From the NCBI RefSeq assembly GCF_000332195.1, contig NZ_KB235922.1:558001-622000 (forward strand): DNA of 64,000 nt, written 5' to 3'. Position numbers and translations under genes: made by a program. The notes beneath the pieces are model-generated. The model was not told the origin of the DNA and searched no databases. It saw nothing but the letters and a program-made list of their open reading frames with translations. The DNA is from Pleurocapsa sp. PCC 7319 (lineage in GTDB: Bacteria > Cyanobacteriota > Cyanobacteriia > Cyanobacteriales > Xenococcaceae). Positions 9,774-54,312 of this stretch are shown one piece after another. Numbering within the stretch: position 1 is the stretch's first letter; every line of letters starts with the position of its first letter.

Positions 9774-10523
9774 CTAATAGCTGATTTGCAAAGTGACAGA
9801 AGCTCTGACTGTTTGTTCTCCACCGATGATAGGCGTATTTACTTGAGCATCTGCTCTTGACAATTGCTCAACTTGAATAGGCTTTGGTGGGGGGACACTG
9901 GCTTGATTTACTTGAATACTAACAATCTCTTTTGACGTAAGATTAAGAGTCTCCAAAACAGTATCTGCCATAGCTTGAGCATCAATAGTTGCTTTACGGA
10001 GTGCATCTTTTTGAGCAGTAGAGATTGCTTCAGGGGTAGCGGTAAAACTTACCCCATCGATGCGGCTGGCTCCCGCTTTTACGGTTTCATCTAACAAAGT
10101 TCCAACCAGCTCTGTCTGGAGACGAAAGCTGACCGTATTGGTGCCAATGTAACCCACTAAACGCCTTTGCTTATTACTGTAGTCATAATTTGGTTGCAAC
10201 CGAACGCCAGTGGTTTGTAACTGTTCAACATTTTTTGAGCGTAGTAAATCCACCACAGCTGATGTACGAGAAGCTACTTCCTGTTGTACTTCCGTCGCCG
10301 TTTTTCCCTGAATCTCAACTCCCAACCTGACTTGTGTAAGGGTGGTGGCAATCTTTTCAATCCCATTTCCAGTTACTGTCAACGTTGGTAATAATTTTTC
10401 TGAGGCCATAACTGGATTAATCAAAGTCAAACTGAGAAAACTGCAAATGGCGAAGCCACTACTTAAACGCAGGTTCGGTACCGTAAATTGACTTATCTTC
10501 AATTGTTTTCTGTATTTGCTCAT
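9774..10523 (-). CDS. SIMPL (DUF541) domain secreted protein
   Basis: 249 residues. After a charged start (MSKYRKQLKISQF) comes a hydrophobic segment (SGFAICSFLSLTLINPVMA) that looks like a signal peptide with AxA-type cleavage near residue 40. The mature part begins LPTLTVTGNGIEKI, the hallmark opening of SIMPL/DUF541 proteins, and continues with DYSNKQRRLVGYIGTNTVSF and KASRI-type DGVSF blocks. E. coli YggE belongs here and is linked to oxidative stress tolerance; the biochemical role is unknown. Likely periplasmic. No operon partner. Confidence 0.85.
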   Translation of the reverse strand: MSKYRKQLKISQFTVPNLRLSSGFAICSFLSLTLINPVMASEKLLPTLTVTGNGIEKIATTLTQVRLGVEIQGKTATEVQQEVASRTSAVVDLLRSKNVEQLQTTGVRLQPNYDYSNKQRRLVGYIGTNTVSFRLQTELVGTLLDETVKAGASRIDGVSFTATPEAISTAQKDALRKATIDAQAMADTVLETLNLTSKEIVSIQVNQASVPPPKPIQVEQLSRADAQVNTPIIGGEQTVRASVTLQISY

Positions 10524-38890: not shown

Positions 38891-39586
38891 CTAATTATTC
38901 TTAGTAGGACGAAAAGCATTGAGAAAATTGAGCAAGGGATAGAGATTGCGCGACTGAATCCATAATCTGCCTTCACCACTAAAGCGACAAACTAGACCCT
39001 CGCCACCAAATATTCCTGTTCTCAAGTTACTAAATGAAAGTCCGCCAATAACTTCTACATCATAGTTAAGAGTATCTTCAAAGGCGACGATATAACTGGT
39101 ATCCACCACATAATTACCAGCCACGGGAATTTCGATAATTCCCCCATAGGAACTAAACCAAAAATCACCAGTTCCCGATGCTCGTAGCAAAAATAAAGAT
39201 TCCCCACTAAAAAAGCCTTTTAAGCCTTGGAACTTACTATCCAATTCAATATTAGGACTACAGGCAACAAAACCCGAGCCTTGAACCATTAAGTTAGATT
39301 TACTAGTCAAATAATAATGTTGAATATCCCCAGGAATATTAGGAGAAATATATAATTCTCCGTTTCTGTCTTGGGCAGTAAATTCGTTGACAAATAGAGA
39401 TTCTCCTCCCAGCATTCTGCCAATGCCTTTGCTCAATCCCCCCTGAATTTTAGATTTCATTTTTAAGCAAGTATCCATTGCTGCCATCGCTGATGCCTCC
39501 ACCAACACCGTCTGATTTACTGGTATATCCAATACCAAAGACGCATAAGCTGGAGCATGTTCAATGCGATAAGGAATGTCATTCAT
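38891..39586 (-). CDS. AIM24 family protein (TIGR00266), third of three
   Basis: 231 residues. AIM24-family proteins form a beta-prism-like fold; the yeast member is mitochondrial and helps cristae organisation, bacterial ones are uncharacterised. Seen here: EHAPAYASLVLDIPVNQTVL, VEASAMAAMD, GESLFVNEFTAQD, GFFSGESLFLLRASGTGDF and GIFGGEGLVCRFSGEGRLWI. Last gene of a three-gene tandem read on the minus strand, 30 bp after the second. The three are clearly paralogous but well diverged. Confidence 0.87.
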   Translation of the reverse strand: MNDIPYRIEHAPAYASLVLDIPVNQTVLVEASAMAAMDTCLKMKSKIQGGLSKGIGRMLGGESLFVNEFTAQDRNGELYISPNIPGDIQHYYLTSKSNLMVQGSGFVACSPNIELDSKFQGLKGFFSGESLFLLRASGTGDFWFSSYGGIIEIPVAGNYVVDTSYIVAFEDTLNYDVEVIGGLSFSNLRTGIFGGEGLVCRFSGEGRLWIQSRNLYPLLNFLNAFRPTKNN

Positions 39587-39616
39587 AATTAGTTATTAGT
39601 TAATCTTTCTTAATTC

Positions 39617-40297
39617 TTATCTGGCGGGAAGTAAAGAACCAATAATTGAACCAAACGCACTAACACTGTGAGTTTGGCAATATACTTTCCCCTGTCCCCG
39701 AAAGCGACAGACTAAACCCTCTCCTCCCAAAAATGAACCAATCCAACTGGAACTAGCTTTGGTTACGTTAAAATCAAGTGTTCGCTCAAAAGCGACAATA
39801 TGCCCAGTGTCAACGGTATATTCTCCATCTACAGGAATGGCATATATACCACCAAAGGAAGTCAAAATTGCTTTGCCATAACCAGAGAGGGTGAGCCAGA
39901 AAATTGACTCTCCAGAAAAAACTGATTTAATGCCCTCAAAGCCCAAATCTAAATCTACTTTAGAACTACAGGCTAAATAGGACGTGGCTTGGACAATTAA
40001 ATCCTGTCCTTCCATGTCATAAACTAATAAATCACCAATTAACTTGGGGGCTAACCAGATTTCGTTACCATCCTGGTAGGAACGAAACTGACTGAGAAAT
40101 AGAGATTCCCCGGCAATCATTCTTTTTAAGCCACCCATAATACCACCGCCTCTTCTTCCCTGGCGCATGGTGGTATTTACTTGTAGAGCATCACTCATGG
40201 CGATCATTGAACCCGCTTCGGCAATAATCTCTTCTCCTGCATCTAGTTGGATACGAGCGATCGCACTATCCGGTTGATGTAATAATTCAACTTCCAT
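39617..40297 (-). CDS. AIM24 family protein (TIGR00266), second of three
   Basis: 226 residues. Same fold: DAGEEIIAEAGSMIAMSDAL, GGGIMGGLKRMIAGESLFLS, VFSGESIFWLTLSGYGKAIL and GSFLGGEGLVCRFRGQGKVY. Its start codon overlaps the end of the first paralogue by 11 bp, so the two are almost certainly cotranscribed and coupled. No signal peptide or membrane helix. Confidence 0.87.
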   Translation of the reverse strand: MEVELLHQPDSAIARIQLDAGEEIIAEAGSMIAMSDALQVNTTMRQGRRGGGIMGGLKRMIAGESLFLSQFRSYQDGNEIWLAPKLIGDLLVYDMEGQDLIVQATSYLACSSKVDLDLGFEGIKSVFSGESIFWLTLSGYGKAILTSFGGIYAIPVDGEYTVDTGHIVAFERTLDFNVTKASSSWIGSFLGGEGLVCRFRGQGKVYCQTHSVSAFGSIIGSLLPAR

Positions 40298-41033
40298 CTT
40301 GGAGAAACCTCTCGGCTAAATTACTGGATTGGGACATACGGCGATTTCTATGACCAAGTTTGAGTATTTTTGGGCTTAAAAACCCGATTAATCCACTCAT
40401 ACTGCGAGATTGTAGATAAATATCGCCATTGCCCGATAAACGATTTACAAAACCTTCCCCAGAAGTCAGTGAACCAATCAACCCCCCAGAAAGTCCAATC
40501 CCCATCTTAATTACCGGTTCGTAAGCAATGAGGTGAGAATTATCAACAATAAATTCTCCTCGAACTGTTTTTTTAGTAATACCTCCATAACCACCAAAAA
40601 AAACTTGTCCCCTACCTGAAAGCTTCAGTTTGAACCAACCTTCTCCGGCGAAAGCACTCTTAAAACCTGCCCAACGCACTCCCATTTTGACACCTGGGGT
40701 ATGGGCAATATAAGCCCCTTTTTGAAAAAAGATCGCCTTTCCCCGAAGATTGAGTGATTCAATATCCCCCAGATTAGATTGAGTTAAAACAAGACTTAAA
40801 TTTTGTCTAGTTTGGTTAGTAAAAACATTGACAAATAGAGATTCTCCACCAAAAAACTTCCGCATCAAAGCCGAAAAAAAACCACCTGAAAATTCCGTTT
40901 TCATGGTTAATTGGCTATCCATGCTTACCATTGCCCCAGCCTCGGCAGTAATACTATCCCCTGGTTCGAGAGTGATAAATATAGCTGCGAATGCTGGTTT
41001 ATATCTAATGTCGCACTGCACAATTATTATCAA
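40287..41033 (-). CDS. AIM24 family protein (TIGR00266), first of three
   Basis: 248 residues, with ITLEPGDSITAEAGAMVSMD, GGFFSALMRKFFGGESLFVN, AFAGEGWFKLKLSGRGQVFF and GSLTSGEGFVNRLSGNGDIY. The C-terminal tail (HRNRRMSQSSNLAERFLQDG) is longer than in the other two. ATG at 41033; divergent from the guanidine operon, whose promoter is about 140 bp away. Confidence 0.87.
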   Translation of the reverse strand: MIIIVQCDIRYKPAFAAIFITLEPGDSITAEAGAMVSMDSQLTMKTEFSGGFFSALMRKFFGGESLFVNVFTNQTRQNLSLVLTQSNLGDIESLNLRGKAIFFQKGAYIAHTPGVKMGVRWAGFKSAFAGEGWFKLKLSGRGQVFFGGYGGITKKTVRGEFIVDNSHLIAYEPVIKMGIGLSGGLIGSLTSGEGFVNRLSGNGDIYLQSRSMSGLIGFLSPKILKLGHRNRRMSQSSNLAERFLQDGS

Positions 41034-41167: not shown

Positions 41168-41196
41168 TTGCATTTAAGAATGTTTAATCTTAGTAT
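41168..41196 (+). promoter_or_regulatory. Sigma-70-type promoter of the guanidine operon
   Basis: TTGCAT (41168-41173), 17-bp spacer, TAGTAT (41191-41196). Placement 37 bp before the riboswitch start fits a transcript beginning near 41203. Confidence 0.55.
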
Positions 41197-41234
41197 TAAT
41201 TATATTAATTAACGTACAACAGAATAACCAGGCT

Positions 41235-41366
41235 TCTAGGGTTCCGATTTAAGCAACAAGATTTAAATGACTGGTCCGAGAGAAGCCAACTACCCTAAGC
41301 AAGTTTGGTTAGTCTTCTAAGACTCCTGACCTCTGGTAGTACACGGCGGGAAAAAAGCCCGGGAGA
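41235..41366 (+). ncRNA. Guanidine-I riboswitch (ykkC class)
   Basis: The conserved ykkC elements appear in order: CTAGGGTTCCG (about 41236-41246), ACTGGTCCGAGAG (about 41270-41282), ACACGGCGGGAAAAAAGCCC and GGGAGA (41341-41366). This aptamer binds guanidinium. It directly precedes a guanidine hydrolase gene, which confirms the assignment functionally. Guanidine is expected to stabilise the aptamer and switch downstream genes on. Confidence 0.95.
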
Positions 41367-41414
41367 TATTGGCAACTTTAGCTAGTTGTTGAGACTCCTG
41401 GGTTTTGTTTTTTG
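41358..41414 (+). terminator. Riboswitch expression platform terminator
   Basis: CCCGGGAG (41358-41365), the 3' end of the aptamer core, can instead pair with CTCCTGGG (41395-41402), with an inner AACT/AGTT helix, followed by TTTTGTTTTTT. Mutually exclusive with the ligand-bound aptamer, hence an ON switch by antitermination. Confidence 0.85.
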
Positions 41415-41444
41415 TATAGACTAATCTGGAAGAGGAAAATCAAT

Positions 41445-42623
41445 ATGAGTGAGCCATCGTTTTCTGCCCCTAATAATGATTCCACCGAAGCTCAAAGAGC
41501 ATTAGAAAAAGAAACTAGACTGCCACTTACTGGCTGGCAACAGGAAGTTGAGCAAGGATTAGAATACGGTTTAGAAGCTGCCGAAAGTATTCGCGATCGC
41601 TCTATTCCTAATTTTTCACGGGGAGAATTACCTCACTACGCAGGGATTAACACCTTTCTCAAAGCTCCCTACCTGGAAAATGTCAACAATGTCGGACAAT
41701 ATGACGTAGCAATTGTTGGTGTTCCCCACGACTCAGGTACAACTTATCGTCCAGGAACAAGATTTGGTCCTCAGGGAATTAGGCGGATTTCAGCACTTTA
41801 TACCCCCTATAACTTTGAGTTAGGAGTCGATTTGCGCGAACAAATTACCCTCTGTGATGTGGGAGATATTTTTACCATTCCTGCCAATAACGAAAAATCA
41901 TTCGATCAAATTTCTAAAGGTATCGCCCATATCTTTAGTTCGGGGGCATTTCCCATAATCTTAGGTGGAGATCATTCGATTGGTTTTCCTACAGTTCGGG
42001 GAGTATGTAGACATTTGGGTAACAAGAAAGTTGGCATTATTCACTTTGATCGCCACGTAGATACTCAAGAAACAGACTTAGACGAAAGGATGCACACTTG
42101 CCCTTGGTTTCATGCCACCAATATAGCTAATGCTCCTGCAAAAAATCTGGTGCAATTAGGTATTGGTGGTTGGCAAGTACCTCGTCCAGGAGTCAAAGTA
42201 TGTCGGGAGAGAGCTACCAATATCTTGACCGTGACAGATATTACTGAAATGGGCTTAGATGCTGCCGCCGATTTCGCTTTAGAAAAAGCTCTAGACGGAA
42301 CAGACTGCGTATATATCAGCTTTGATATTGACTGTATCGATGCTGGTTTTGTCCCCGGTACAGGTTGGCCAGAACCAGGCGGTCTTATGCCCCGAGAAGC
42401 TTTATATCTGCTGAAGAAAATTGTTCAGAATGCTCCTGTTTGTGGACTAGAAATTGTCGAGGTATCTCCTCCTTACGACATCAGCGATATTACTTCATTG
42501 ATGGCGACTCGCGTAATTTGTGACACGATGGCACATTTAGTTTTATCTGGACAATTACCCCGAGAAAATAAACCAGACTATATCCATGAGGAGTCACAAC
42601 AGGTAGATTCTCCTTGGCGATAA
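41445..42623 (+). CDS. gdmH: Nickel-dependent guanidine hydrolase (guanidinase)
   Basis: 392 residues from ATG 41445 (MSEPSFSAP), preceded by GGAAGAGGAAAA; the upstream TTG frame overlaps the terminator and is rejected. Ureohydrolase fold converting guanidine to urea and ammonium. Metal ligands: His177 (GGDHSIGF), Asp202, His204, Asp206 (FDRHVDTQE), Asp294 and Asp296 (SFDIDCID). The N-terminal ~80-residue extension and DERMHTCPWFHATNI, GTGWPEPGG match the Synechocystis Sll1077 type, shown to be a Ni-dependent guanidinase, rather than agmatinase. First gene of a riboswitch-controlled operon with hypA/hypB-like chaperones and an ABC importer. Confidence 0.93.
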   Translation: MSEPSFSAPNNDSTEAQRALEKETRLPLTGWQQEVEQGLEYGLEAAESIRDRSIPNFSRGELPHYAGINTFLKAPYLENVNNVGQYDVAIVGVPHDSGTTYRPGTRFGPQGIRRISALYTPYNFELGVDLREQITLCDVGDIFTIPANNEKSFDQISKGIAHIFSSGAFPIILGGDHSIGFPTVRGVCRHLGNKKVGIIHFDRHVDTQETDLDERMHTCPWFHATNIANAPAKNLVQLGIGGWQVPRPGVKVCRERATNILTVTDITEMGLDAAADFALEKALDGTDCVYISFDIDCIDAGFVPGTGWPEPGGLMPREALYLLKKIVQNAPVCGLEIVEVSPPYDISDITSLMATRVICDTMAHLVLSGQLPRENKPDYIHEESQQVDSPWR

Positions 42624-42626
42624 TGT

Positions 42627-42656
42627 GAGTTCGGAGTTCGGAGTTCGGAGTTCGGA
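42627..42656. repeat. Heptamer array (GAGTTCG) x4
   Basis: Four tandem GAGTTCG units starting four bases after the gdmH stop codon. Confidence 0.9.
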
Positions 42657-42661
42657 ATAAT

Positions 42662-42793
42662 TGTTTCACCAAATATGCCTATACCCATGTAGCGGAAGAA
42701 GGAGGATTTGACCTAACTAAGTATCATGCTATTTTGGCTTGGTTCAAACGCATTGAAGCTAACCCAAGACATATTTTGATTACTGATTACTGA
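42662..42793 (+). pseudogene. Glutathione S-transferase C-terminal remnant
   Basis: The plus strand reads KYAYTHVAEEGGFDLTKYHA, then ILAWFKRIEANPRHILITDY and a stop, the typical last helix pair of cyanobacterial GSTs (YAYTHVA.EGGFDL..YPAI.AW..R). Forty-odd codons, no start, no N-terminal domain. It is stranded between gdmH and hypA, in the operon's direction. Confidence 0.75.
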
Positions 42794-42831
42794 TTATCTC
42801 GATCCCGCTTGACGGGACTGATTACTAAAAA

Positions 42832-43209
42832 ATGCATGAAACAGATATGACCAAGGCGTTGATCTTAACCATGAAAGATTGGTATGTATCTCAGCCTGAA
42901 CAACGGAAAATCGAAAAAGTCCATTTAATTGTCGGACAGTTCACCTGTGTTGAACCAGTCAGTCTTAAATTTGCTTTTGAAATTCAAACACGAAACACTT
43001 TTCTTGAAGGAGTGGAACTAATTATTAAAGATATTCCCTTGATCGCTTTTTGTCATAGTTGCCAGCAAGAATACAAACCAAAGATTGGCTTGCAATATAG
43101 CTGCCCCGATTGTCAATCACCAATGGAAGACATCAGATCTGGTCGAGAATTAAAGATAGATCATATTGAGTATTCAACTGTTCAGGAACAAGTTACAAGT
43201 AGCAATTAG
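42832..43209 (+). CDS. HypA-like nickel chaperone of the guanidinase (GhaA type)
   Basis: 125 residues. HypA delivers nickel; the N-terminal MHE (His2, Glu3) nickel site is present, as is the zinc site CHSCQQ...CPDCQSP (about Cys74, 77, 91, 94). In Synechocystis the hypA-like gene next to gdmH (sll1078) encodes an accessory factor for GdmH activation rather than hydrogenase. No hydrogenase gene is in this window, which supports that role. The stop codon TAG lies inside an AGCAATT array. Confidence 0.9.
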   Translation: MHETDMTKALILTMKDWYVSQPEQRKIEKVHLIVGQFTCVEPVSLKFAFEIQTRNTFLEGVELIIKDIPLIAFCHSCQQEYKPKIGLQYSCPDCQSPMEDIRSGRELKIDHIEYSTVQEQVTSSN

Positions 43210-43224
43210 CAATTAGCAATTAGC
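43201..43224. repeat. Heptamer array (AGCAATT) over the hypA stop
   Basis: Three and a half AGCAATT units. The frame reads AGC AAT TAG, so the array contains the stop codon. Confidence 0.85.
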
Positions 43225-43279
43225 AAAGCGATCGCTAAATCCTCCAGAAGAAAATCCTTATCCCTCATCCCTTAAAATT

Positions 43280-43975
43280 ATGCATCAAACATATAATGCC
43301 GCCATGGAAATAAACCTGCTCCACGCTAACCAAGAAGGAGCAGATCATAATCGTGCCCATTTTGATGAGTGGGGTATTACTTGTCTAAATATAATGAGTA
43401 GCCCAGGGGCAGGCAAAACTGTTTTATTAGAAAAAACTTTAGCAACCTTACAAGATAAGTTAAGTATAGCTGTAATTGAAGGAGACATGACTACAGAATT
43501 GGATGCCAATCGCTTGCGCCAATATAATGTCCCTGTAATTCCAATCAATACGGGACGTTCTTGTCATTTGGACTCTAAAATGGTGGCTGGGGGAATTCAC
43601 ACTTTGCAACAAAAGTATAATCCCAATAATATTGATTTGGTTTTAGTTGAAAATGTCGGTAATTTAGTTTGTCCCGCGGAATTTGAAGTAGGGGAACACG
43701 CCAAAGTTGCCTTGTTAAGTGTTACCGAAGGTGAAGATAAACCTTTGAAATATCCAGTAATGTTTCAGCAAGCCGATTGCTTATTGATTACCAAAATAGA
43801 TTTAGTTCCTTATCTGAATATTGACTTAGAGCGTATTGTTAGCAATGTACGTCAGATCAACCCTGATGTAACTATATTTAGTGTATCCGCCACCACAGAA
43901 GTCGGTTTAGATCTATGGTTCTATTGGTTGTCTACTCAAGTGAAACACCGAAAATATACAAGCTCATGTTTCTAA
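43280..43975 (+). CDS. HypB-like nickel-inserting GTPase of the guanidinase (GhaB type)
   Basis: 231 residues. GTPase with P-loop [16 protein letters not shown] (about residues 39-54), [15 protein letters not shown], the metal motif [11 protein letters not shown] (Cys and His at the dimer interface) and [13 protein letters not shown] (NKxD-like). Lacks a His-rich N-terminus. It cooperates with HypA-like protein to load nickel, here presumably into GdmH. Same strand, 70 bp after hypA. Confidence 0.9.
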
Positions 43976-44115
43976 GAAAACCACAAAAATTTCCAAAAAC
44001 AACATATCACGGTAGAGTAATTTCTATCTGAATTACGAGTTTTCATTTGTATCTCAGGCTGTAGGAATTTTGTAATTCTAATGATGTTTATCTTTTTTGT
44101 AATCAGTTAATTTAG

Positions 44116-45153
44116 ATGAATAGAAGAAAATTACTATCATTACTTAGTGTATTTTGCCTCAGTCTAATATTAACTATTAGCTGTTCTCAAACTCCTCAAT
44201 CATCGGACTCAGGTACTTCCAATACCGCCAAAGATCAAGCCATCGTTATCGGCTATAGTAACTGGGCTGGTTGGTGGCCGTGGGCGATCGCTGAGAAAGA
44301 AGGTATGTTCGCTAAAAATAATGTGAATGTCGAAATGAAATGGTTTGATGGCTACCTTGAGTCTATGGAAGCTTTGGCTGCTGGTCAGCTTGATGGCAAC
44401 TGTCAAACTCTTAACGACACCATTTCTTTTGCTGCTGATGCGGTTAACGGCGAAGTAGCGATTTTGGTGAATGATAACTCGGCAGGAAATGACAAGATTA
44501 TCGTTACCGAAGATATCAATACGATTGAAGATTTGAGAGGTAAGAAAGTTGCCGTGGAAGAAGGGGTGGTAGATGATTTTCTACTGACTTTGGCACTAGA
44601 ATCAAAAGGGATGAAACGGGATGATGTCAAAATTGTGCCTCTCGAAACTGGTGCTGCTGCTGCCGCTTTTGCATCAGGACAAGTGGACGCAGTGGGTGCT
44701 TTCCCCCCCTTTTGGTTAACTGCTCTCAAACGGGAAGGTTCTAAAGAATTAATTTCTTCTAAAGAATTCCCAGGTGCAATTCCTGATTTATTAGTAGTCA
44801 CTCAAAAACTAATTGATGAACAGCCCGATAAAGCTCAAGCATTAGTTAATACTTGGTTTGATGTGATGAATTTTATAGAACAGAATCCTGAAAAAGCAGA
44901 TGAAATTATGGCCGAAAGAGCAGATGTCACGGTTGAAGAGTTACAACTATTCAAAGAAGGCACAAAAATGTTCACTATTGAAGATAATTTGAGAGCGTTT
45001 AGCGATGGTGACAATATGAAACATATGCCCTTCGCTGCTCAAAAAATGTCTGAGTTTATGATAGATGTTGGCTTTATTCCTGAAGCACCAGATTTAACTA
45101 AGGTCTTAGATGATCAGTTTGTACAAGCTTATGCCAAGACTGCTAAAAAATAG
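44116..45153 (+). CDS. ABC transporter substrate-binding lipoprotein, probably guanidine
   Basis: 345 residues. Lipoprotein signal with lipobox (LILTISCSQ, Cys23). Mature part belongs to the NMT1/SsuA-like binding proteins: IVIGYSNWAGWWPWAIAEKE, MFAKNNVNVEMKWFDGYLES, DVVDDFLL-type hinge and GAFPPFWLTALKREG. Tryptophan-rich stretch WAGWWPW could cradle a cation such as guanidinium. Homologues (sll1080) follow the guanidinase genes in Synechocystis. Substrate inferred from context. Confidence 0.85.
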   Translation: MNRRKLLSLLSVFCLSLILTISCSQTPQSSDSGTSNTAKDQAIVIGYSNWAGWWPWAIAEKEGMFAKNNVNVEMKWFDGYLESMEALAAGQLDGNCQTLNDTISFAADAVNGEVAILVNDNSAGNDKIIVTEDINTIEDLRGKKVAVEEGVVDDFLLTLALESKGMKRDDVKIVPLETGAAAAAFASGQVDAVGAFPPFWLTALKREGSKELISSKEFPGAIPDLLVVTQKLIDEQPDKAQALVNTWFDVMNFIEQNPEKADEIMAERADVTVEELQLFKEGTKMFTIEDNLRAFSDGDNMKHMPFAAQKMSEFMIDVGFIPEAPDLTKVLDDQFVQAYAKTAKK

Positions 45154-45379
45154 CTGATTTTTTAGTCAATCTTGCTCAGATACTCGAAGAGGCAAAATTG
45201 TCTGTTGTCGAACTTCAAATTTCGTTGCGCGACGCGACAGCTAGTCCTTTAGGGTAGTTTCTCGCTTAGCGAGTACTTCAAATTTCGATTTTAAATAAAT
45301 GTTTCTTGGCTTATTTATAAAATTTACCATTAATAACTTACAGCTATAAAAATCCTAAAAAATATAAAAATCATAAAAA

Positions 45380-46207
45380 ATGCTCAAAAGCGATCTAGCG
45401 AAAGCTTCAAGATCTAATTTAAAACCTACTACTTTTTGGCGTATTACCGAAGATATCCCTCAGTCTTTATCTTGGATATTAATGAGTTTATCCCTCATAA
45501 TTCCTTTGTCTATTTGGCTTGTTGTCACTAGATCTACTGAAATAGACTCAATTTTTTTGCCATCTCCCAGCGATGTGATCGAAGCTTTTCAGAAATTATG
45601 GTCTAAAGGATTTTTAATCCAGGATACATTAGCTAGTTTTACTAGGGTAAGTTTAGGATTTATCTTGTCGGCAGTTGTTGCTGTTCCCTTAGGAATTCTT
45701 ATGGGAACATTTGCTAGTATTCGGGCTTTATTTGAACCTATAATTGGCATTGTTCGCTATATGCCCGCCCCCGCTTTTATTCCTCTCTTAATCATCTATC
45801 TTGGTGTTGATGAAGCTCCTAAGATTGCACTGATATTTATTGGTACGGTATTTTTTAACATCCTAATGATCATGGATAGTGTAAAATTCGTTCCCCAAGA
45901 ATTAGTTGAAACAACTTATACTTTGGGTGGTAAACGTGGGCAGGTATTATCTCAAGTAATTACTCCCTTTATCATTCCCCGTATTATCGATACTTTTCGC
46001 GTAAATATGGCAGCTTCTTGGAATTTGGTAGTCGTTGCTGAACTACTGGCGGCCTCTGAAGGTTTAGGCAAAAGAATTTTATTAGCCCAAAAGTTTCTTA
46101 GAACAGAAGAAATTTTTGCCTGTTTAATTATCTTGGGTTTAATCGGTTTTGCTCTCGATTTATTTTTTCGTTTATTAGTTAGATTTACTTGTAAATGGGC
46201 ATTTTGA
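45380..46207 (+). CDS. ABC transporter permease of the guanidine operon
   Basis: 275 residues, six hydrophobic helices, of the SsuC/TauC type. The cytoplasmic EAA loop is VETTYTLGGKRGQVLSQVIT. Gene 226 bp after the binding protein; the spacer has a direct repeat CTTCAAATTTCG (twice, near 45207 and 45270) but no gene. Forms the plasma-membrane channel with the adjacent ATPase. Confidence 0.88.
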   Translation: MLKSDLAKASRSNLKPTTFWRITEDIPQSLSWILMSLSLIIPLSIWLVVTRSTEIDSIFLPSPSDVIEAFQKLWSKGFLIQDTLASFTRVSLGFILSAVVAVPLGILMGTFASIRALFEPIIGIVRYMPAPAFIPLLIIYLGVDEAPKIALIFIGTVFFNILMIMDSVKFVPQELVETTYTLGGKRGQVLSQVITPFIIPRIIDTFRVNMAASWNLVVVAELLAASEGLGKRILLAQKFLRTEEIFACLIILGLIGFALDLFFRLLVRFTCKWAF

Positions 46208-46292
46208 AGAAATCAATTGAGAAAAAGGAGAAAATGCAAGAAGTCAATAAATACTGATTACTGATTACTTCCGCGTAGAGGTAAATTGAACA

Positions 46293-47072
46293 ATGCACCT
46301 AGAACTATCTCATCTTTATAAAGAATTCCCCTCGAAGAAAGGAACACTCATTGCTCTCAAGGATATCAACATGCATGTCGAGACCGGGGAATTTGTCTGT
46401 ACGGTTGGTGCTTCTGGCTCGGGAAAATCAACTTTATTACGCTTAGTTGCTGGTCTGGACTTCCCCACTTCTGGTGAAATTACAGTAGATTATCAACCAG
46501 TAACCGGACCTGGAGCAGATCGGGGAATGGTATTTCAAAAATATACTCTTTATCCCTGGATGACCGTGCAAAAAAATGTGGAGTTTGGTTTAAAATTACT
46601 GGGGATTTCTGCTCAAAAACGACGAGAAATTGCCTCTTCACATCTAGATATTGTGGGTTTGGCAAATTTTGCCAAATCTCTACCTAAAGAACTATCTGGA
46701 GGTATGAAGCAACGGGTTGCGATCGCCCGTGCTTTAGCTACTAATCCCAAAATCCTCTTGATGGATGAACCTTTTGGCGCCTTAGATATTCAAACTAAAG
46801 AAAATATGCAGCAATTCCTGCTGGAAATATGGCGCAAAACAGGTTGCACAATTCTGATGATTACCCATGATGTAAGAGAGGCAGTATTTTTATCTCAAAG
46901 AATTTATGTCCTCTCAGCGCAGCCTGGTACGGTCAAACAAGAATTTAAGATCGACTTACCAAGCGATCGCGATTACCGTATTAAACGTCAAGCAGATTTC
47001 CACCAACAAGCCGATGAAATTATGGATCTAATGAGAAATATAAATACGGTAGCAGAGCCAATTGCCAATTAA
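46293..47072 (+). CDS. ABC transporter ATP-binding protein of the guanidine operon
   Basis: 259 residues. Walker A GASGSGKSTLL (about 41-51), Q-loop MVFQKYTLYPW, ABC signature LSGGMKQRVAIARAL, Walker B ILLMDEPFGALD and switch His in MITHDVREA. SsuB/TauB/NrtD-like. Last gene of the guanidine operon; its stop is 8 bp from the end of convergent eboF. A short ATTACTG repeat precedes its leader. Confidence 0.93.
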   Translation: MHLELSHLYKEFPSKKGTLIALKDINMHVETGEFVCTVGASGSGKSTLLRLVAGLDFPTSGEITVDYQPVTGPGADRGMVFQKYTLYPWMTVQKNVEFGLKLLGISAQKRREIASSHLDIVGLANFAKSLPKELSGGMKQRVAIARALATNPKILLMDEPFGALDIQTKENMQQFLLEIWRKTGCTILMITHDVREAVFLSQRIYVLSAQPGTVKQEFKIDLPSDRDYRIKRQADFHQQADEIMDLMRNINTVAEPIAN

Positions 47073-47080
47073 TTTTTTGC

Positions 47081-48451
47081 TCAATTCAGATGATTTAGTA
47101 TGATCTGAAATACTTCTGTGGCTTTAATTATTTCATTCGTCAACAAATCTTGCTGTTGAGAAATTAATAACGGCGATCGCCCTATTGAAGTTGTCAGATG
47201 TCCGTGAGAACCTTTGACCAGACTAGCATCTAAAGGAATTACATCCATCAAATAACGAAAACCCAGTTTCTTTTGAAGTAAGGTCAATGCTATTTTGCCT
47301 GGGGGAAATTTTAGCTGCGGATCGACAAAAAGTTCTACTGGATCGTAACCAGGTTTGCGGTGGATATCAACGGTACGGGCAAAATCGGGAGCGAGACTGT
47401 CATCTAACCAATAGTAGTAGGTAAACCAAGCATCAGGACTGGCGATCGCTACAAGTTCACCTGAACGAGAATGATTCAGGTGATATTTTTGCTTTCCTGC
47501 TTCATCTAAGACTAAATCGATTCCGGTCGTATTTTCTAAGATATTTCTTACCTGAGCCAAACAATCATGGTCATTGACGTAAACATGAGCAATTTGATGA
47601 TCGGCAACAGCAAAAGCTTTACTTGCTCCAGGAATTAAAATTTCTTTGCCTAGTTCTTCTCTCACGGTAATTAAACCCTGCTGTCTGAACAGACGGTTAA
47701 GATGTATAGGCTGAGAAACTTCTGTAATACTATATTCAGAGAGAACAATAACTTTCGCACCTCTAGCTTCGTAAAATTCAATCAAATCCTGACAGACTCG
47801 ATCTATTTCTTGTAAATCCTGGGCAATAGTTTGAGGATTTGTGCCAAGCTTTTGCAAACAATAATCCAAATGGGGAAGATATACCAAAGTTAGAGTGGGA
47901 CTATATTTTAATTCAACTTGTTTACTAGCATCAGCAATCCACTGACTAGATTTGACAGAAGTATTCGGTCCCCAAAAATTAAATAAAGGAAACTCTCCCA
48001 ATTCGTCAGTTAACCAAGGGCGTAATTCCATCGGTTCAGTATAGATATCAGGAAGTTTCCGACCATCTGCGAGATACATGGGACGTGGTGTCACCGCATA
48101 GTCAACTGAAGAATACATATTGTACCAACCAAAAAGATTAGCACAGGTAAAATCAGGATCGAGCGCTCGCGCTTTATCCCAGATTTTAGGGGCTTGAACT
48201 AGATGGTTCGATTGTCGCCATAATTTGACTTCACATTCATCTCGAAAATACCAGCCATTAGCGACAATACCATGCTCATCGGGATTAACTCCTGTGTAAT
48301 AGGTTGCTTGGGCGGTGCAGGTGACAGCTGGTAGAACTGGTTTAATTGAAGTGGTCTTACCTCGTTTCTGCCAAGCAGAGAGAAAAGGAGTGTATTCTCC
48401 AATTAATTCTGGAGTTAAGCCGACTACGTTCAGAACTACAGTTTTATCCAT
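47081..48451 (-). CDS. eboF: EboF, alkaline-phosphatase-superfamily hydrolase
   Basis: 456 residues. Nucleotide pyrophosphatase/phosphodiesterase-like protein. Metal and nucleophile region: VVLNVVGLTPELIGE near the start and PAVTCTAQATYYTGVNPDEHG (Thr nucleophile about residue 44); later LPHLDYCLQKLG, VLSEYSIT and KGSHGHLT contribute metal ligands. Placed as the last of six ebo genes in the canonical A-F order. Ebo proteins are required in Nostoc for moving the scytonemin monomer to the periplasm; individual roles are unknown. Confidence 0.9.
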   Translation of the reverse strand: MDKTVVLNVVGLTPELIGEYTPFLSAWQKRGKTTSIKPVLPAVTCTAQATYYTGVNPDEHGIVANGWYFRDECEVKLWRQSNHLVQAPKIWDKARALDPDFTCANLFGWYNMYSSVDYAVTPRPMYLADGRKLPDIYTEPMELRPWLTDELGEFPLFNFWGPNTSVKSSQWIADASKQVELKYSPTLTLVYLPHLDYCLQKLGTNPQTIAQDLQEIDRVCQDLIEFYEARGAKVIVLSEYSITEVSQPIHLNRLFRQQGLITVREELGKEILIPGASKAFAVADHQIAHVYVNDHDCLAQVRNILENTTGIDLVLDEAGKQKYHLNHSRSGELVAIASPDAWFTYYYWLDDSLAPDFARTVDIHRKPGYDPVELFVDPQLKFPPGKIALTLLQKKLGFRYLMDVIPLDASLVKGSHGHLTTSIGRSPLLISQQQDLLTNEIIKATEVFQIILNHLN

Positions 48452-48456
48452 AATTA

Positions 48457-48554
48457 ATTACTGATTACTGGTTATTGATTACTGATTACTGATTACTGAT
48501 TACTGATTACTGATTACTGATTACTGATTACTGATTACTGATTACTGATTACTG
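48457..48554. repeat. Heptamer array (ATTACTG) x14
   Basis: Fourteen tandem heptamers, thirteen perfect. The complementary strand codes for the last residues and stop of EboE (ATC AGT AAT CAG TAA), so the array has grown over the eboE end. Confidence 0.95.
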
Positions 48555-49761
48555 ATAAAACCCATTGGTATTCCCGTTCAATGGAGGTCAAAATATCTAA
48601 TTTCATTTCGGGAGGTAATACTTCCCAGGTATAGGTTTCAATCTCTAAATGATGACCTACAGCATAGTGGGGTAGTATTTTTAGTAGCTTTTCCAGATGT
48701 TTTTGCGTAGATTCAAATAATTGATAATTACGAATAAAAATCGGTACGTGAAAATGAGTACGCCATTCTTCGGCTTCGGTTTCTAAAAGCAAGGGTAAGG
48801 CTGTAGATAAGTCACGATGATGTTTAAAGTCAGCCCGATTGTGGTGGCGAGCAATAACTTGATGTAGATAAGTAGATTCAGCAAAAGGCGATAGTTTATT
48901 TTTAATTTTCTGGCGTTGCTCTGGTTCTGAAGGGATATTAATTTTGATTGCCGAACTGAGTTGGATTTTGCCAATTTTAATGCCCGCATTCTGAAAAGAT
49001 TGCAGTATTTGCTCTGGTTCTTCGTACTCTACTGCAAAATGACAGGTATCGTAGCATACCCTTATATGCTCGGTAATCCAAGATTCTGCTACTGACTGAG
49101 TAATTCCTAGCTGTTGTTGTAGCCATTTGCCCCCGATAGGCAATAACCAATCTTGAAAGAAATCAATAACTTCCGTAGTGTTTTCCAATAGACCATCGGG
49201 TTCTGGTTCGAGATCGAGATGCAGCAATTTTCCTGTATTTTGATGCACCTCTGCCATTACTGCGATCGCCTGAGCTAAATGAATACTACTTTGCCGAAAA
49301 ACGTGATTTTTCTCTTCAGAATTATGCCACCAGGGTTTATAGGACACGGGTAATGTAGAGATTCCACCATCAAGACTTTCTGGCAATAGAGTAGTTAAAA
49401 TCTCAATTAGCTTTAGAGTGTAATCTAAACGTTCTACTTTAGACCAGTCAGGAGCATACACTCGATCCTTGACCACTTGATGATGAAATCCACCGTAGGG
49501 AAAACCATTGAGGGTAAAGACATATAAATCTTGTTCTTGTAACCAGCTATGAAATTGGGCAAGATTATCTCCATTTAGTAATTCTCTCGCAGCGATATCT
49601 GCTAGGCGTAAGCCAATACCAAAGGATTGATCTGGAGATAATCTAGTTTTTAATTTAGTTATATATTGTTTGACGTTATGTTCTACTTCTGACCAAGTTT
49701 CTCCGGGATGGATATTGGTACAGTAAGTAAGATGTAATTGGTCATTGGTTGCTAGTTTCAC
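48535..49761 (-). CDS. eboE: EboE, TIM-barrel sugar-isomerase-like protein
   Basis: 408 residues, GTG start at 49761 (MKLATNDQLHLTYCTNIHPG). TIM barrel of the xylose isomerase type: FTLNGFPYGGFHHQVVKDRV, LHLDLEPEPDGLLENTTEVI (metal-binding Glu), CYDTCHFAVEYEEP. Ends SVISNQ inside the heptamer array. Downstream eboF 83 bp away, upstream eboD 68 bp. Reaction unknown. Confidence 0.9.
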   Translation of the reverse strand: MKLATNDQLHLTYCTNIHPGETWSEVEHNVKQYITKLKTRLSPDQSFGIGLRLADIAARELLNGDNLAQFHSWLQEQDLYVFTLNGFPYGGFHHQVVKDRVYAPDWSKVERLDYTLKLIEILTTLLPESLDGGISTLPVSYKPWWHNSEEKNHVFRQSSIHLAQAIAVMAEVHQNTGKLLHLDLEPEPDGLLENTTEVIDFFQDWLLPIGGKWLQQQLGITQSVAESWITEHIRVCYDTCHFAVEYEEPEQILQSFQNAGIKIGKIQLSSAIKINIPSEPEQRQKIKNKLSPFAESTYLHQVIARHHNRADFKHHRDLSTALPLLLETEAEEWRTHFHVPIFIRNYQLFESTQKHLEKLLKILPHYAVGHHLEIETYTWEVLPPEMKLDILTSIEREYQWVLSVISNQ

Positions 49762-49829
49762 GGTGATTATTGGTTATATTGATTTAAATAAACCGTTTCC
49801 GATGAATTACACCGATTTACTTAATTGAA

Positions 49830-51035
49830 CTAACTAACAGTTGTAACTTCAATTTCTTGCAACATCAAGATTGCTTGTTTATAGATAGGGATATTGACTT
49901 GATTTACCTCTAGTCCTTGTCCAATTTTGGGCAATAGCATTACCGCTAAATTACCGCCTAGATGCTCGCGGAATTCTACTAACCCACAAAAAATAGAATC
50001 TTCTGCTTCAGAATTGTCTAAGTTACTAGCTAGCTCAGGAACAAATAGCTCAAATCCAAGATTCTGTAGAGTTTTGATAATTTGTTGCCATTCCTCTTGA
50101 TTTAGTAGTCCTGTCAAATAAGAATAGGTACAGTCTAGAGCTATACCAATAGCTACAGCTTCTCCGTGCCGTAGGCGATAATTAGTCAAGTATTCTAGTT
50201 TATGAGCTGCCCAGTGACCAAAATCTAGGGGGCGAGAAGAACCCATTTCAAAAGGATCGCCATAATTAGCTATATGATTTAGGTGTAGTTCGGCACAACG
50301 GTAGATTACCTGTTCCATTGCTTCGGTATCCCTTAGAGCTAAATTCTTAGCGCGATCGCTAATATGTTGGAAGAACTCTGGATCTTTTATCAAAGCTACT
50401 TTAATTGCTTCAGCAATACCCGATCGCCAGTCTCGATCTTCTAAAGTGGAGAGAAAATCGAAATCGTTTAGTACTGCAACAGGTGGAGCAAAAGTACCTA
50501 AAAAGTTTTTTTTGCCGAAAGCATTAATACTGTTTTTGACTCCTACCCCCGAATCATTTTGGGCGAGAACAGTTGTCGGGATACGAATTAATCGCACACC
50601 GCGATGGGCGGTAGCAGCAGCATAACCCACCATATCGATTACGGCACCGCCACCAATTGCTAGAACGTAGGAGTGACGACATATTCCTGCTTGCTCAATA
50701 GTTTGCTGAATTTTGTCAACCAAAGAGGGATCGTTTTTGGCTGCTTCCCCTCCGGGAATGATGATTGGTTCAGCAGCTAGTTTGATTTTTTCGCTGAAAT
50801 AGTTGGTGTAGTTGGTAATTTGTTTGATTAACTGGGGATGATGCTCTAATAATCCCGAATCAACCACTACCATGATAGATTTTGCTTTATTGTTTTCTGT
50901 AGCTATTACTTGAGATAGCAGAGGATTACTGGTATTGAATAGCCCCTTAGTAAAGTGAACGTCATAAGTAAATCTAACTGCGATGTCTTGACGTAAAGAT
51001 TCGATTTGGGAAATGTTATTTTTTTGTAGAAGCAT
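49830..51035 (-). CDS. eboD: EboD, 3-dehydroquinate-synthase-like protein
   Basis: 401 residues. Sugar phosphate cyclase fold. NAD-binding AIGGGAVIDMVGYAAATAHR, then RGVRLIRIPTTVLAQNDSGV, LGTFAPPVAVLNDFDFL and metal ligands in FGHWAAHKLEYLTNYRLRHG. In cyanobacteria true AroB is a separate housekeeping gene; the ebo context says this is the EboD paralogue. Product unknown. Confidence 0.9.
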   Translation of the reverse strand: MLLQKNNISQIESLRQDIAVRFTYDVHFTKGLFNTSNPLLSQVIATENNKAKSIMVVVDSGLLEHHPQLIKQITNYTNYFSEKIKLAAEPIIIPGGEAAKNDPSLVDKIQQTIEQAGICRHSYVLAIGGGAVIDMVGYAAATAHRGVRLIRIPTTVLAQNDSGVGVKNSINAFGKKNFLGTFAPPVAVLNDFDFLSTLEDRDWRSGIAEAIKVALIKDPEFFQHISDRAKNLALRDTEAMEQVIYRCAELHLNHIANYGDPFEMGSSRPLDFGHWAAHKLEYLTNYRLRHGEAVAIGIALDCTYSYLTGLLNQEEWQQIIKTLQNLGFELFVPELASNLDNSEAEDSIFCGLVEFREHLGGNLAVMLLPKIGQGLEVNQVNIPIYKQAILMLQEIEVTTVS

Positions 51036-51068
51036 TGGTATTTTTAGAATGAAATTGATAATAGTATT

Positions 51069-51210
51069 CGTATATAGCGTTTCTCGTATTAATGAGATAC
51101 ACCTTGGTGGAGTCAGGGAATAGGGAATAGGGAATAGGGAATAGGGGTTTTAAGGTTTTTGACTAAGTTTATATTTGTACCTCACTTATTTGAGAAACGC
51201 TATATAGCGG
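51069..51210. repeat. MITE-like element, family B, copy 2
   Basis: Near-identical inverted copy of 36137-36279: TATATAGCGTTTCTCGTATT ... GAGAAACGCTATATAGCGG, with four GGGAATA heptamers at 51116-51146. Sits between eboC and eboD. An extra short palindrome (AAAGCGGCTTTGCCGC) follows. Confidence 0.88.
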
Positions 51211-51254
51211 TTTTCCAATAAAGCGGCTTTGCCGCAGCTAGGAGCTTCGCTCCT

Positions 51255-52175
51255 TTAAGTAACAGCAAACAATCGCGCTAAAAAGCGAGATAAGGGCAAC
51301 AATGCCAGTAATAACAAGCCATAAATCCAATTGCTAAAGCCAGTAGCAATAGTTGCATCCAAAACAATTAATGATAAGATTCCTGCCTTAACTGCCATTT
51401 GAATTAACTTAGGCTCAGGATTAATAGAAGCTTTAATAAAAGACGGCAAAACTAAAGCTGTAAATAAAGCCAAAAAAGGTAAAGTTATTAAGAGGGTATA
51501 TTCTGGTAACAGTCCTAAACTAAGGATGCTACCTATCACTATGGCAATTAAAGCGATCGCTATCATGCCAGTAACTTTCTTGCCGCCTTGGACTTCCCCT
51601 TGAGCAATAGCAGTAATTGCAGCAATGTAGATGATAGGAATTAATGCTAAATACCAGTGATTACCAACTGCTGAAGGAATCGCACTAACACCCAACAACA
51701 AGTTACCACCGCGACACAAACCCATATTTAAAGGTCCTAAAATTGTCTGATGTTTACTCCACTTATCGTATGTAAGAGCGCAGGTGGCAACAATGATGGC
51801 TAAAATCGCACTCAGTTGAGATACTATGGCTGCGGCAATAATCGCCATAACTAACAACAACGTACCTAAGGCGATCGCACCTGATAAAGTTGCTTCTCCA
51901 CTGGGAATAGGACGTTCTGGACGTTCAACGGCATCTAACTGAGCATCACAGACATCGTTAAAAACAACTCCCCCACCATAAAGTCCTGTGGTAGCTAAAA
52001 TTAACCAGCCCAAAGTCATAAAATTTAGGTTACTGATGCCAACGGTAACTGCTCCAGCCACGGCATATCCTAAAAGAATATCTGCCCAAGCAGTGACAAT
52101 ATTGGCAGGACGCATGAGTTGTAAATAAGCCCAGGTAGATTGAAATTTGTTCGATTTAATAGTTATCGAAGACAT
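51255..52175 (-). CDS. eboC: EboC, UbiA-family prenyltransferase
   Basis: 306 residues, about eight membrane helices. First Asp-rich motif VVFNDVCDAQLDAVERPERP (NDxxD), which binds Mg-prenyl diphosphate; second Asp-rich loop CALTYDKWSKHQTIL. Starts with AYLQLMRPANIVTAWADILL, typical for UbiA. EboC is the membrane component of the Ebo set; its acceptor is not known. Confidence 0.92.
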   Translation of the reverse strand: MSSITIKSNKFQSTWAYLQLMRPANIVTAWADILLGYAVAGAVTVGISNLNFMTLGWLILATTGLYGGGVVFNDVCDAQLDAVERPERPIPSGEATLSGAIALGTLLLVMAIIAAAIVSQLSAILAIIVATCALTYDKWSKHQTILGPLNMGLCRGGNLLLGVSAIPSAVGNHWYLALIPIIYIAAITAIAQGEVQGGKKVTGMIAIALIAIVIGSILSLGLLPEYTLLITLPFLALFTALVLPSFIKASINPEPKLIQMAVKAGILSLIVLDATIATGFSNWIYGLLLLALLPLSRFLARLFAVT

Positions 52176-52206
52176 GATGAATTATGTAAGAAGTAACAAA
52201 TTGTTT

Positions 52207-52342
52207 GTAGGGGCAGGCGCATCCCATTTTGGAAGAAACATGATGTATTGGATAATCTAACCTTTGATTTATCGTCTATCGAAAAAATATATTTGCTGAA
52301 ATGAGATGCTCCCGTAGGGGGCGTTTCGCGAAACGCCCCTAC
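52207..52342. repeat. Composite repeat, GTAGGGG family, copy 3
   Basis: Begins GTAGGGGCAGGCGCATCCCA and ends with the palindrome GTAGGGGGCGTTTCG/CGAAACGCCCCTAC (52314-52342). GCATCCCATTTT and AAATGAGATGC form an inner inverted pair. Located between eboB and eboC. Confidence 0.75.
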
Positions 52343-53271
52343 TAAACAATGACCACAGATTTAGCTTCTGAAGTGGATTCAACTAGAGGTTGTTGCCCTC
52401 TCAATACTGAATTACCACTATATAGTTCGCGTTGATCGATGGGAGAGGAATTGAGCCAATCACTTTCTTTAATTTGACCGCTTTGACTATAAGCAGTTAA
52501 GGCATTTTGATAGCAAACGGCTTTAATATGCTCTTCAGGAATACCTCTTTGTGCCATGAGTTGAGCAGTTTTGGGAACTGCTAATGGGTCACTGACACCC
52601 CAATCGGCACTACTATCGACAATAATGCGATCGCAACCATAGTGACGTACGACTTCCACCATTCTTTCATTACCCATTTTGGTATGGGGATAAATGGTAA
52701 ATCCTGCCCAAAAACCCCGATCTAAAACTTCTTTAGCGGTTTCTTCGTTATTATGGTCGACGATTACCTGAGATGGTTGTAGCCCATGTTCTAAACAGAC
52801 ATCCATACTACGAGATGTACCCGATTTTTTATCTCGATGGGGTGTATGAATCATGACGGGTAAACCTAATTCTTTGGCTAGTTCTAACTGAAGACGAAAA
52901 TACTTATCTTCCGCAGGAGTCATGTCATCATAACCAATTTCGCCAATGGCTACTACGCCCTCCTTGCAAGCATAAAGGGGTAACATTTCCATCACTGCTT
53001 CAGCTATGGCTTCATTATTAGCCTCTTTGGAATTTAAACCAATAGTACAGTAATGCTTGATGCCAAACTGACTGGCACGAAATCTCTCCCAACCAACCAA
53101 AGAACTTAAATAGTCTCTATAGGTATCAGCACTAGTACGAGGTTGCCCCAACCAAAATGCTGGTTCAATGATTGCCACGATGCCAGCTTTAGCCATTGCT
53201 TGATAGTCGTCGGTAGTTCTGGCAGTCATGTGAATGTGGGGATCGAGGAACATCATGTTGTTGTTTTGCAT
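52342..53271 (-). CDS. eboB: EboB, TatD-family metal-dependent hydrolase
   Basis: 309 residues. Amidohydrolase-type TIM barrel: LDPHIHMTARTTDDYQAMAK (metal His pair), GVVAIGEIGYDD, PVMIHTPHRDK, VIVDHNNEETAKEVLD and IIVDSSADWGVSDP. Metal ligands His12, His14 and the later His/Asp are in place. Its stop touches the composite repeat at 52342. Substrate unknown. Confidence 0.9.
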   Translation of the reverse strand: MQNNNMMFLDPHIHMTARTTDDYQAMAKAGIVAIIEPAFWLGQPRTSADTYRDYLSSLVGWERFRASQFGIKHYCTIGLNSKEANNEAIAEAVMEMLPLYACKEGVVAIGEIGYDDMTPAEDKYFRLQLELAKELGLPVMIHTPHRDKKSGTSRSMDVCLEHGLQPSQVIVDHNNEETAKEVLDRGFWAGFTIYPHTKMGNERMVEVVRHYGCDRIIVDSSADWGVSDPLAVPKTAQLMAQRGIPEEHIKAVCYQNALTAYSQSGQIKESDWLNSSPIDQRELYSGNSVLRGQQPLVESTSEAKSVVIV

Positions 53272-53325
53272 TGTTTTATAAGTGATTTTTTAGAATAATT
53301 AAGTTTGAAGAAATTTAAGTAGGAA

Positions 53326-54075
53326 TTAAGCGCAAATCACCTCAAATTCCGGTTCAAGTTCGGCAACTGCTTGAGAATTAAAAGGTGCAACTAGTTCCCA
53401 TAGTTCAGGATTAACTGTTCTTTTGGCTGCCAATCTTTCACGGGCATAGTCAATTAACATCTGGGATAACTGTTGATTATTACGGCTTTTTAATCCATAA
53501 ATAGGATGTAGTGGAGTACCAACAAATAAAGCTTTTAGAATCATTTGATTCCAAGCTAAATCATTTAAATATTTTGCTGGGTAGGGGTTATTTAACGCTA
53601 CTGCATTAAATACTGAAGTCATGTTTGTACGAACTCCTTCAGCAGCACGTAATTGAAATTTTTCTGGATAAGGCAATAATGATAAACTTTGATATAAAGC
53701 GATCGCTTCTCTTACATCCGCTGCCGCAAAAATCTTATTTAAAGTTGCTACATATTTATCTTCATCTTCGTGGGGAAAAGATAAAATCAGTAAACTGCGA
53801 CCAACTTGATCTAAAGTCCAATCAATCGGATTCCATCCAGTTACTAGTTTATTTGCTGCTTGTAATTCCTCAATTGATAATTCTAGTTTTTGCTTCCCTA
53901 AGTATCTAACTACACTACTAAAGGCAGTAAATAGAGTTTTTTCAGCAGAATTCTGCGTAATTTCTGCTTGCTTTCTTGTTAACCAAGCTAAATTTTCAGT
54001 CGCAGCCCGTGTTTCCAACCAGGTATATAGTAAAGCAATAATTTTATTGGTTTTAATATCTGTCTCAGATGCCAT
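53326..54075 (-). CDS. eboA: EboA domain-containing protein
   Basis: 249 residues from ATG 54075 (MASETDIKTNKIIALLYTWL); an alternative upstream start adds eleven residues without support. All-helical protein: NPIDWTLDQVGRSLLILSFP, FPHEDEDKYVATLNKIFAAA, LAWNQMILKALFVGTPLHPI and ARERLAAKRTVNPELWELVA are EboA blocks. First gene of the ebo operon, 54 bp before eboB. Confidence 0.88.
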   Translation of the reverse strand: MASETDIKTNKIIALLYTWLETRAATENLAWLTRKQAEITQNSAEKTLFTAFSSVVRYLGKQKLELSIEELQAANKLVTGWNPIDWTLDQVGRSLLILSFPHEDEDKYVATLNKIFAAADVREAIALYQSLSLLPYPEKFQLRAAEGVRTNMTSVFNAVALNNPYPAKYLNDLAWNQMILKALFVGTPLHPIYGLKSRNNQQLSQMLIDYARERLAAKRTVNPELWELVAPFNSQAVAELEPEFEVICA

Positions 54076-54312
54076 GATTAAAGTGATAACACTGATGTTA
54101 CTTTTCAACTATAATCATGTTTTTCAAAAACGACTATAAACTTTCGATGTTTTTTTGCAAAGTTTTAGTTAAATAAATATAGTTTTGATGAAGCGTAAAT
54201 TCTGTGAGAGGAAACACTTCTATTTCAAATAAGTAAATATACAGAAAAACTCAGCAAATAACTAATCTTTTAAGAGAAAAAAATAGAATTTGGTTGAGGT
54301 GTTGATTGCTAG

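Follow-up and report, generated by a model that had tools for sequence, protein, structure and literature searches.

A probable guanidine utilisation locus of Pleurocapsa sp. PCC 7319, with a putative transferase relic behind gdmH

The 64-kb stretch of the Pleurocapsa sp. PCC 7319 genome that we analysed (hereafter the window) very probably contains, at positions 41225-47072, the cyanobacterial operon for guanidine use that has been described in Synechocystis, here in another cyanobacterium. Its gene set had been proposed in an initial annotation of this DNA and is borne out: a riboswitch, a ureohydrolase gene (gdmH), hypA, hypB and the genes for a binding protein, a permease and an ATPase, all on the + strand. 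The same annotation had pointed to sll1077-1082 of Synechocystis for comparison, and the set agrees with the description in excerpts of PMC8390497, where the operon partners of sll1077 are hypA, hypB, sll1080, sll1081 and sll1082. The operon itself is thus already known, and what is new here is a small detail in the gap between gdmH and hypA, where the 3’ end of another gene appears to have been left behind.

The components suggest a mechanism in which the leader RNA, when guanidine is absent, would most likely form a terminator hairpin that halts transcription before gdmH. Bound guanidine would hold the aptamer, which shares the 5’ arm of that hairpin, and transcription would continue. The ATP-binding cassette (ABC) importer would then bring in guanidine, the HypA- and HypB-like proteins would insert nickel into GdmH, GdmH would cleave guanidine to urea and ammonia, and a urease encoded elsewhere would cleave the urea. 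Guanidine sensing, import and hydrolysis are covered together in a review (PMC12186494, consulted as excerpts).

Leader, hydrolase and operon layout

The leader carries a Guanidine-I (ykkC) riboswitch aptamer at 41225-41367 (+), which scores 79.6 bits with RF00442, where the gathering score is 63 (E 1.6e-12 when 64 kb are compared with 4227 Rfam families), with an alignment spanning the full model (1-107). It is the sole Rfam match at gathering scores in the window and the single Guanidine-I match in the whole 7.39-Mb genome, and gdmH starts 77 bases 3’ of its end. The minimum free energy fold of 41225-41415 places a single long, terminator-like hairpin with a U-rich 3’ arm at 41346-41415 (+), a candidate expression platform whose 5’ arm includes the conserved 3’ segment of the aptamer, GCCCGGGAG. 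Folded as a whole, the 191-nt leader has a z-score of -2.80, and one of 200 shuffles was equally stable. Because the conserved 3’ segment of the aptamer sits in the 5’ arm of the hairpin, the two folds are mutually exclusive, which is the pattern expected for a terminator switch turned on by guanidine; these modelled folds point to ligand control of the leader. Both elements had been claimed in the initial annotation, and the aptamer is upheld by its Rfam score and the terminator by the fold.

The hydrolase gene, gdmH, lies at 41445-42623 (+) and encodes a member of PF00491 (Arginase). In a comparison with PDB chains, residues 8-392 align with the solved Synechocystis guanidine hydrolase (7esr/7oi1) at 793 bits, followed by 9fek, the guanidinase of a comammox bacterium, with 593 bits, whereas other ureohydrolases reach no more than 173 bits. 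Excerpts of PMC11410670 name Thr97 and Trp305 as the residues that make the Synechocystis enzyme specific for guanidine. In the window protein T100 and W308 align with these residues (Sll1077 numbering), and both are kept in 80 of 80 named relatives; the shift from Thr97 to T100 is read from the alignment, where two adjacent threonines stand, both conserved. The strings GGDHS, DRHVD and SFDIDCID, starting at residues 174, 200 and 292, are presumably motifs of the metal-site type. The ATG at 41445 is taken as the probable start in preference to the TTG at 41412, because AGAGG precedes it and because the resulting length of 392 amino acids equals that of the 7esr chain. Judged by these comparisons, the window GdmH evidently corresponds closely to the guanidine hydrolase of Synechocystis, in line with the initial annotation, which saw guanidinase-type motifs in this ureohydrolase, and nickel-dependent hydrolysis of guanidine is predicted for it.

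Five further genes follow on the same strand. A hypA-like nickel chaperone gene lies at 42832-43209 (PF01155; TIGR00100 at 118.6 bits, cut-off 88.1) and a hypB-like GTPase nickel chaperone gene at 43280-43975 (PF02492; TIGR00073 at 307.9 bits, cut-off 121.2). The importer genes encode an SsuA/NMT1-like binding protein (44116-45153; PF13379 NMT1_2; TIGR01728 at 289.1 bits, cut-off 163.5) with a lipoprotein-type signal as judged by eye, a permease (45380-46207; PF00528) and an ATPase (46293-47072; PF00005). From gdmH to the ATPase gene the intergenic gaps are 208, 70, 140, 226 and 85 bases, and the arrangement suggests co-transcription of all six genes.

The HypA- and HypB-like proteins are predicted to load GdmH with nickel. 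The operon hypB is an additional copy, since a second HypB-like gene, 47% identical to it, exists elsewhere in the genome; a further match, at 33%, belongs to the CobW/HypB/UreG family and may be UreG. A urease alpha gene is also encoded elsewhere in the genome, and the route from guanidine through urea to ammonia is therefore plausibly complete on paper, which would be consistent with growth on guanidine.

Gene order among relatives and the transport substrate

The arrangement is widespread, ordinary and already published. We compared 80 named loci, kept from 378 found, of which 58 have at least 5.5 kb downstream of gdmH. Of the 80, 70 have the order gdmH-hypA-hypB and 37 the complete six-gene order; among the 58 loci with room, 35 show the six-gene order and 23 do not. 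In a separate survey of 148 genomes sampled from the order Cyanobacteriales, a GdmH match (E <= 1e-100) was found in 78 genomes and a Guanidine-I match in 79 (75 above the cut-off), the latter under strict filters that lose weak matches. At 67 of the 80 gdmH places in these genomes a riboswitch lies on the same strand at most 600 bases upstream (distance 59-335, median 110), and by the same criterion 20 of 87 riboswitch places are not upstream of gdmH. Eight genomes (G136, G056, G067, G085, G102, G017, G119 and G134) have two Guanidine-I matches each, one or both of them not upstream of gdmH.

Departures from the common order take several forms. In L011, a metagenome-assembled genome of Xenococcus MO_188.B8 (9177-10317), the ABC genes come next after gdmH and neither hypA nor hypB was detected between them; this locus lends itself naturally to the question of whether the nickel chaperones of the operon itself are needed. 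The ABC genes are elsewhere or on the other strand in L045, L055 and L068, and the ATPase was not detected in L050 and L061. In L055, from Picosynechococcus, gdmH is the last gene, after hypA-hypB-ABC, and the truncated loci L101 and L102 likewise have gdmH directly behind ABC genes.

Several observations weigh against reading the locus as a single guanidine-controlled unit for import and hydrolysis. The terminator-like hairpin is absent from the output of a simple terminator scan; the gap sizes make internal promoters possible; and at 13 of the 80 gdmH places in the 148 genomes the strict filters left no riboswitch in the 600 bases upstream, these 13 including two pieces of one broken gene (G123) and a genome of the same genus (G120). 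The only model that the binding protein passes, TIGR01728, describes an aliphatic sulfonate family, and its PDB matches include no solved guanidine-binding relative, the solved relatives being named for taurine, sulfonates and nitrate and one being just a putative exported protein. GdmH itself passes the NCBIfam agmatinase equivalog TIGR01230 (174.7 bits, cut-off 174.3). Finally, the transporter is a loose partner of gdmH, because in 15 of the 58 loci with room our queries matched none of the three ABC genes, and in two more (L043 and L052) the sole trace is a weak ATPase match of 28-30% identity on the other strand.

This looseness bears on the possibility that the ABC genes encode an unrelated importer of the NitT/TauT type that happens to stand behind gdmH-hypA-hypB. 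The loci without these genes speak for that possibility, as do those in which the ABC genes lie on the opposite strand (L068) or upstream (L045). Against it stand the 35 loci, out of 58 with room, where the three ABC genes follow in an unchanged order. So do excerpts of PMC8390497, in which expression of the Synechocystis counterparts rises in guanidine-producing strains, and the excerpted later papers, which name the Synechocystis transporter a guanidine ABC importer. We consider an unrelated importer improbable. Binding protein, permease and ATPase all lie within the guanidine operon, and this membership, together with the published statements on Synechocystis, suggests that guanidine is the transport substrate. 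The interpretation in the initial annotation, that the ABC genes import guanidine and that the organism can use it as nitrogen source, is supported, with import as a prediction.

Still more improbable is that the enzyme is an agmatinase, or a hydrolase of another guanidino compound, and that the ABC genes import that compound or a sulfonate. The binding protein does pass the SsuA family model, and GdmH exceeds the TIGR01230 cut-off by 0.4 bits; such a bare pass does not decide the substrate, and an annotation pipeline could label the enzyme agmatinase on that ground. Sll1077 was itself formerly annotated as an agmatinase and is reported to prefer guanidine (Wang et al., excerpts of PMC8390497). 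The 793 bits to 7esr/7oi1 compare with at most 134.5 bits to other solved agmatinase or agmatinase-family chains, a comparison that excludes 7esr and 9fek, which themselves bear old agmatinase names. The Thr/Trp specificity pair is present in the window protein, and only 77 bases separate its gene from the guanidine aptamer. Given the specificity residues and the alignment with the solved Synechocystis enzyme, we rejected the agmatinase reading despite the narrow TIGR01230 pass.

Set beside known systems, the window locus is most like sll1077-sll1082 of Synechocystis sp. PCC 6803 (whose hypA- and hypB-like genes are ghaA and ghaB), with a Guanidine-I riboswitch, a hydrolase, two nickel chaperones, an SsuA-family binding protein, a permease and an ATPase, a likeness drawn from published descriptions as excerpted; unlike that description, the window has the remnant of a transferase gene in front of hypA. 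The comammox Nitrospira inopinata has a riboswitch-controlled guanidinase of the same clade (9fek) but an APC-type permease, and according to excerpts of PMC11410670 its riboswitch has neither an ABC transporter nor nickel chaperones next to it. The guanidine carboxylase operons of Raoultella, Klebsiella and others also combine a guanidine riboswitch with an ABC importer (excerpts of PMC12186494) but use an ATP-dependent carboxylase route, and no such gene is among the six in the window.

The gap between gdmH and hypA

The relic, which the initial annotation does not mention, lies at 42662-42793 (+) and is what is left of a glutathione-S-transferase-like gene, namely its C-terminal end with the stop codon, as seen in its translation and in the match to the whole gene of locus L008. 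Its frame is open over 42629-42793, with the stop at 42791-42793, inside the 208-base gap. A search of the whole genome with the L008 gene recovered it over residues 162-200 (39 residues) at 82% identity (E 1e-15), and an alignment at the DNA level covers 42674-42787. The 43-residue piece alone matched no Pfam family. These matches indicate that the gap once held a glutathione-S-transferase-like gene of which only the 3’ end is left in this strain, perhaps preceded by a methyltransferase gene.

It is very unlikely that the frame at 42629-42793 is instead a small functional gene. The frame and stop are kept at 82% identity to the end of the whole gene; decay must therefore be recent or the piece retained. 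Against function stands the loss of the N-terminal domain, which in the glutathione-S-transferase family binds glutathione. No ATG, GTG or TTG in the frame yields an open reading frame of at least 20 amino acids, and the same slot is broken in other ways in L024, which keeps a 53-residue N-terminal transferase stub, and in L026, which keeps a 63-residue methyltransferase remnant, where the window keeps a C-terminal piece. We also considered that the whole transferase and methyltransferase had relocated in the window’s genome and rejected this, the best copies being only 52% and 46% identical to the L008 genes and taken as paralogues. The same-genus genome G046 has an 85% identical transferase far from the operon, where relocation is possible. 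Short head-to-tail 14-base repeats occur at 42627-42654 and 43196-43223, in the gaps flanking hypA, and are perhaps traces of the events that deleted extra genes.

The nearest named relatives of the window locus are Pleurocapsa. In the closest, Pleurocapsa sp. MO_192.B19 (GdmH 96% identical), the gap holds a whole class-I methyltransferase gene followed by a whole transferase gene, assigned by Pfam to Methyltransf_11 and to GST_N plus GST_C. Counting each genome once, a whole methyltransferase gene stands behind gdmH in L008, L010, L015, L018, L031, L050, G120 and G046, and a whole transferase gene in L008, L015, L018, L026, L037 and L050 as well as in G083 and G105 of other families, the view of G105 covering just the place directly behind gdmH and not reaching hypA. 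Xenococcus sp. PCC 7305 is one of the relatives with a whole transferase gene. L088, L089 and L096, whose contigs equal those of L037, L015 and L024 in length, were taken as the same records as these and were not recounted. In most of the 80 named loci the slot has neither gene.

Trees were built with 28 transferase and 18 methyltransferase rows from elsewhere, namely other listed loci and the paralogues of the window’s genome (L117 and L118; L124); duplicates (L133 and L135 for the transferase; L162, L171 and L172 for the methyltransferase) and 12 and 6 matches without a locus were left out. The eight in-operon methyltransferases form one clade against the 18 other rows (support 100/98), and because of this the methyltransferase likely entered the operon by one insertion. 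One of these other rows, the methyltransferase of L166 (G084), is encoded 2.4 kb past gdmH on the opposite strand and falls outside that clade. The transferase tree accounts for its eight in-operon rows with 4 changes, where shuffles take 7.4, and leaves 20 of 33 inner branches open; a forced single in-operon clade was not rejected (approximately unbiased test, p-AU 0.0975). The poorly resolved tree is compatible with one or several transferase insertions and does not establish a single origin of all in-operon copies; the G083 and G105 genes may represent separate insertions.

The simplest reading is that an ancestor of the family carried gdmH-methyltransferase-transferase-hypA, with repeated partial loss in its descendants that is nearly total in the window strain. 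As a more general statement, that the operon in this cyanobacterial family gained the methyltransferase once together with the adjacent transferase, both co-directional behind gdmH, and that strains lose one or both again, we offer this only as a possibility that is less likely than not. Relatives of the two slot genes occur in 42 and 26 of the 148 genomes (E <= 1e-70), with just 4 and 3 of these copies directly behind gdmH, a distribution that favours general roles over guanidine-specific ones. Among the titles and abstract openings listed by a full-text literature search, aimed at these genes and at guanidine hydrolysis and import, none reports these genes in a guanidine operon; supplements and key papers fall outside its coverage and may list such extras. 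The main texts of PMC8390497 and PMC11410670 contain no ‘glutathione’ and that of PMC8390497 no ‘methyltransferase’ either; in PMC11410670 ‘methyltransferase’ occurs three times, the one instance viewed being a reference on human disease.

Neighbouring genes and implications

Directly upstream of the riboswitch, on the opposite strand, three consecutive AIM24-family genes (PF01987) occupy 38891-41033 (-). Downstream, at 47081-54108 (-), is a run that resembles the ebo metabolite-traffic cluster: an EboE protein (508 bits to the NCBIfam model) stands beside a type I phosphodiesterase, an AroB-like enzyme, a UbiA-like protein and a TatD-like protein. The run also includes a protein at 53326-54108 (-) without a Pfam match, which we take to be EboA.

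In summary, the published route by which guanidine yields nitrogen is very probably present in a further cyanobacterium, from the riboswitch at its head to the urease at its end. The whole slot genes of its relatives are probably under the same riboswitch. If selection maintains them where they are intact, they might contribute new guanidine-induced functions, for example in handling methylated guanidine or guanidine damage. Should these genes prove to be guanidine-induced and important, the operon would do more than hydrolyse guanidine.

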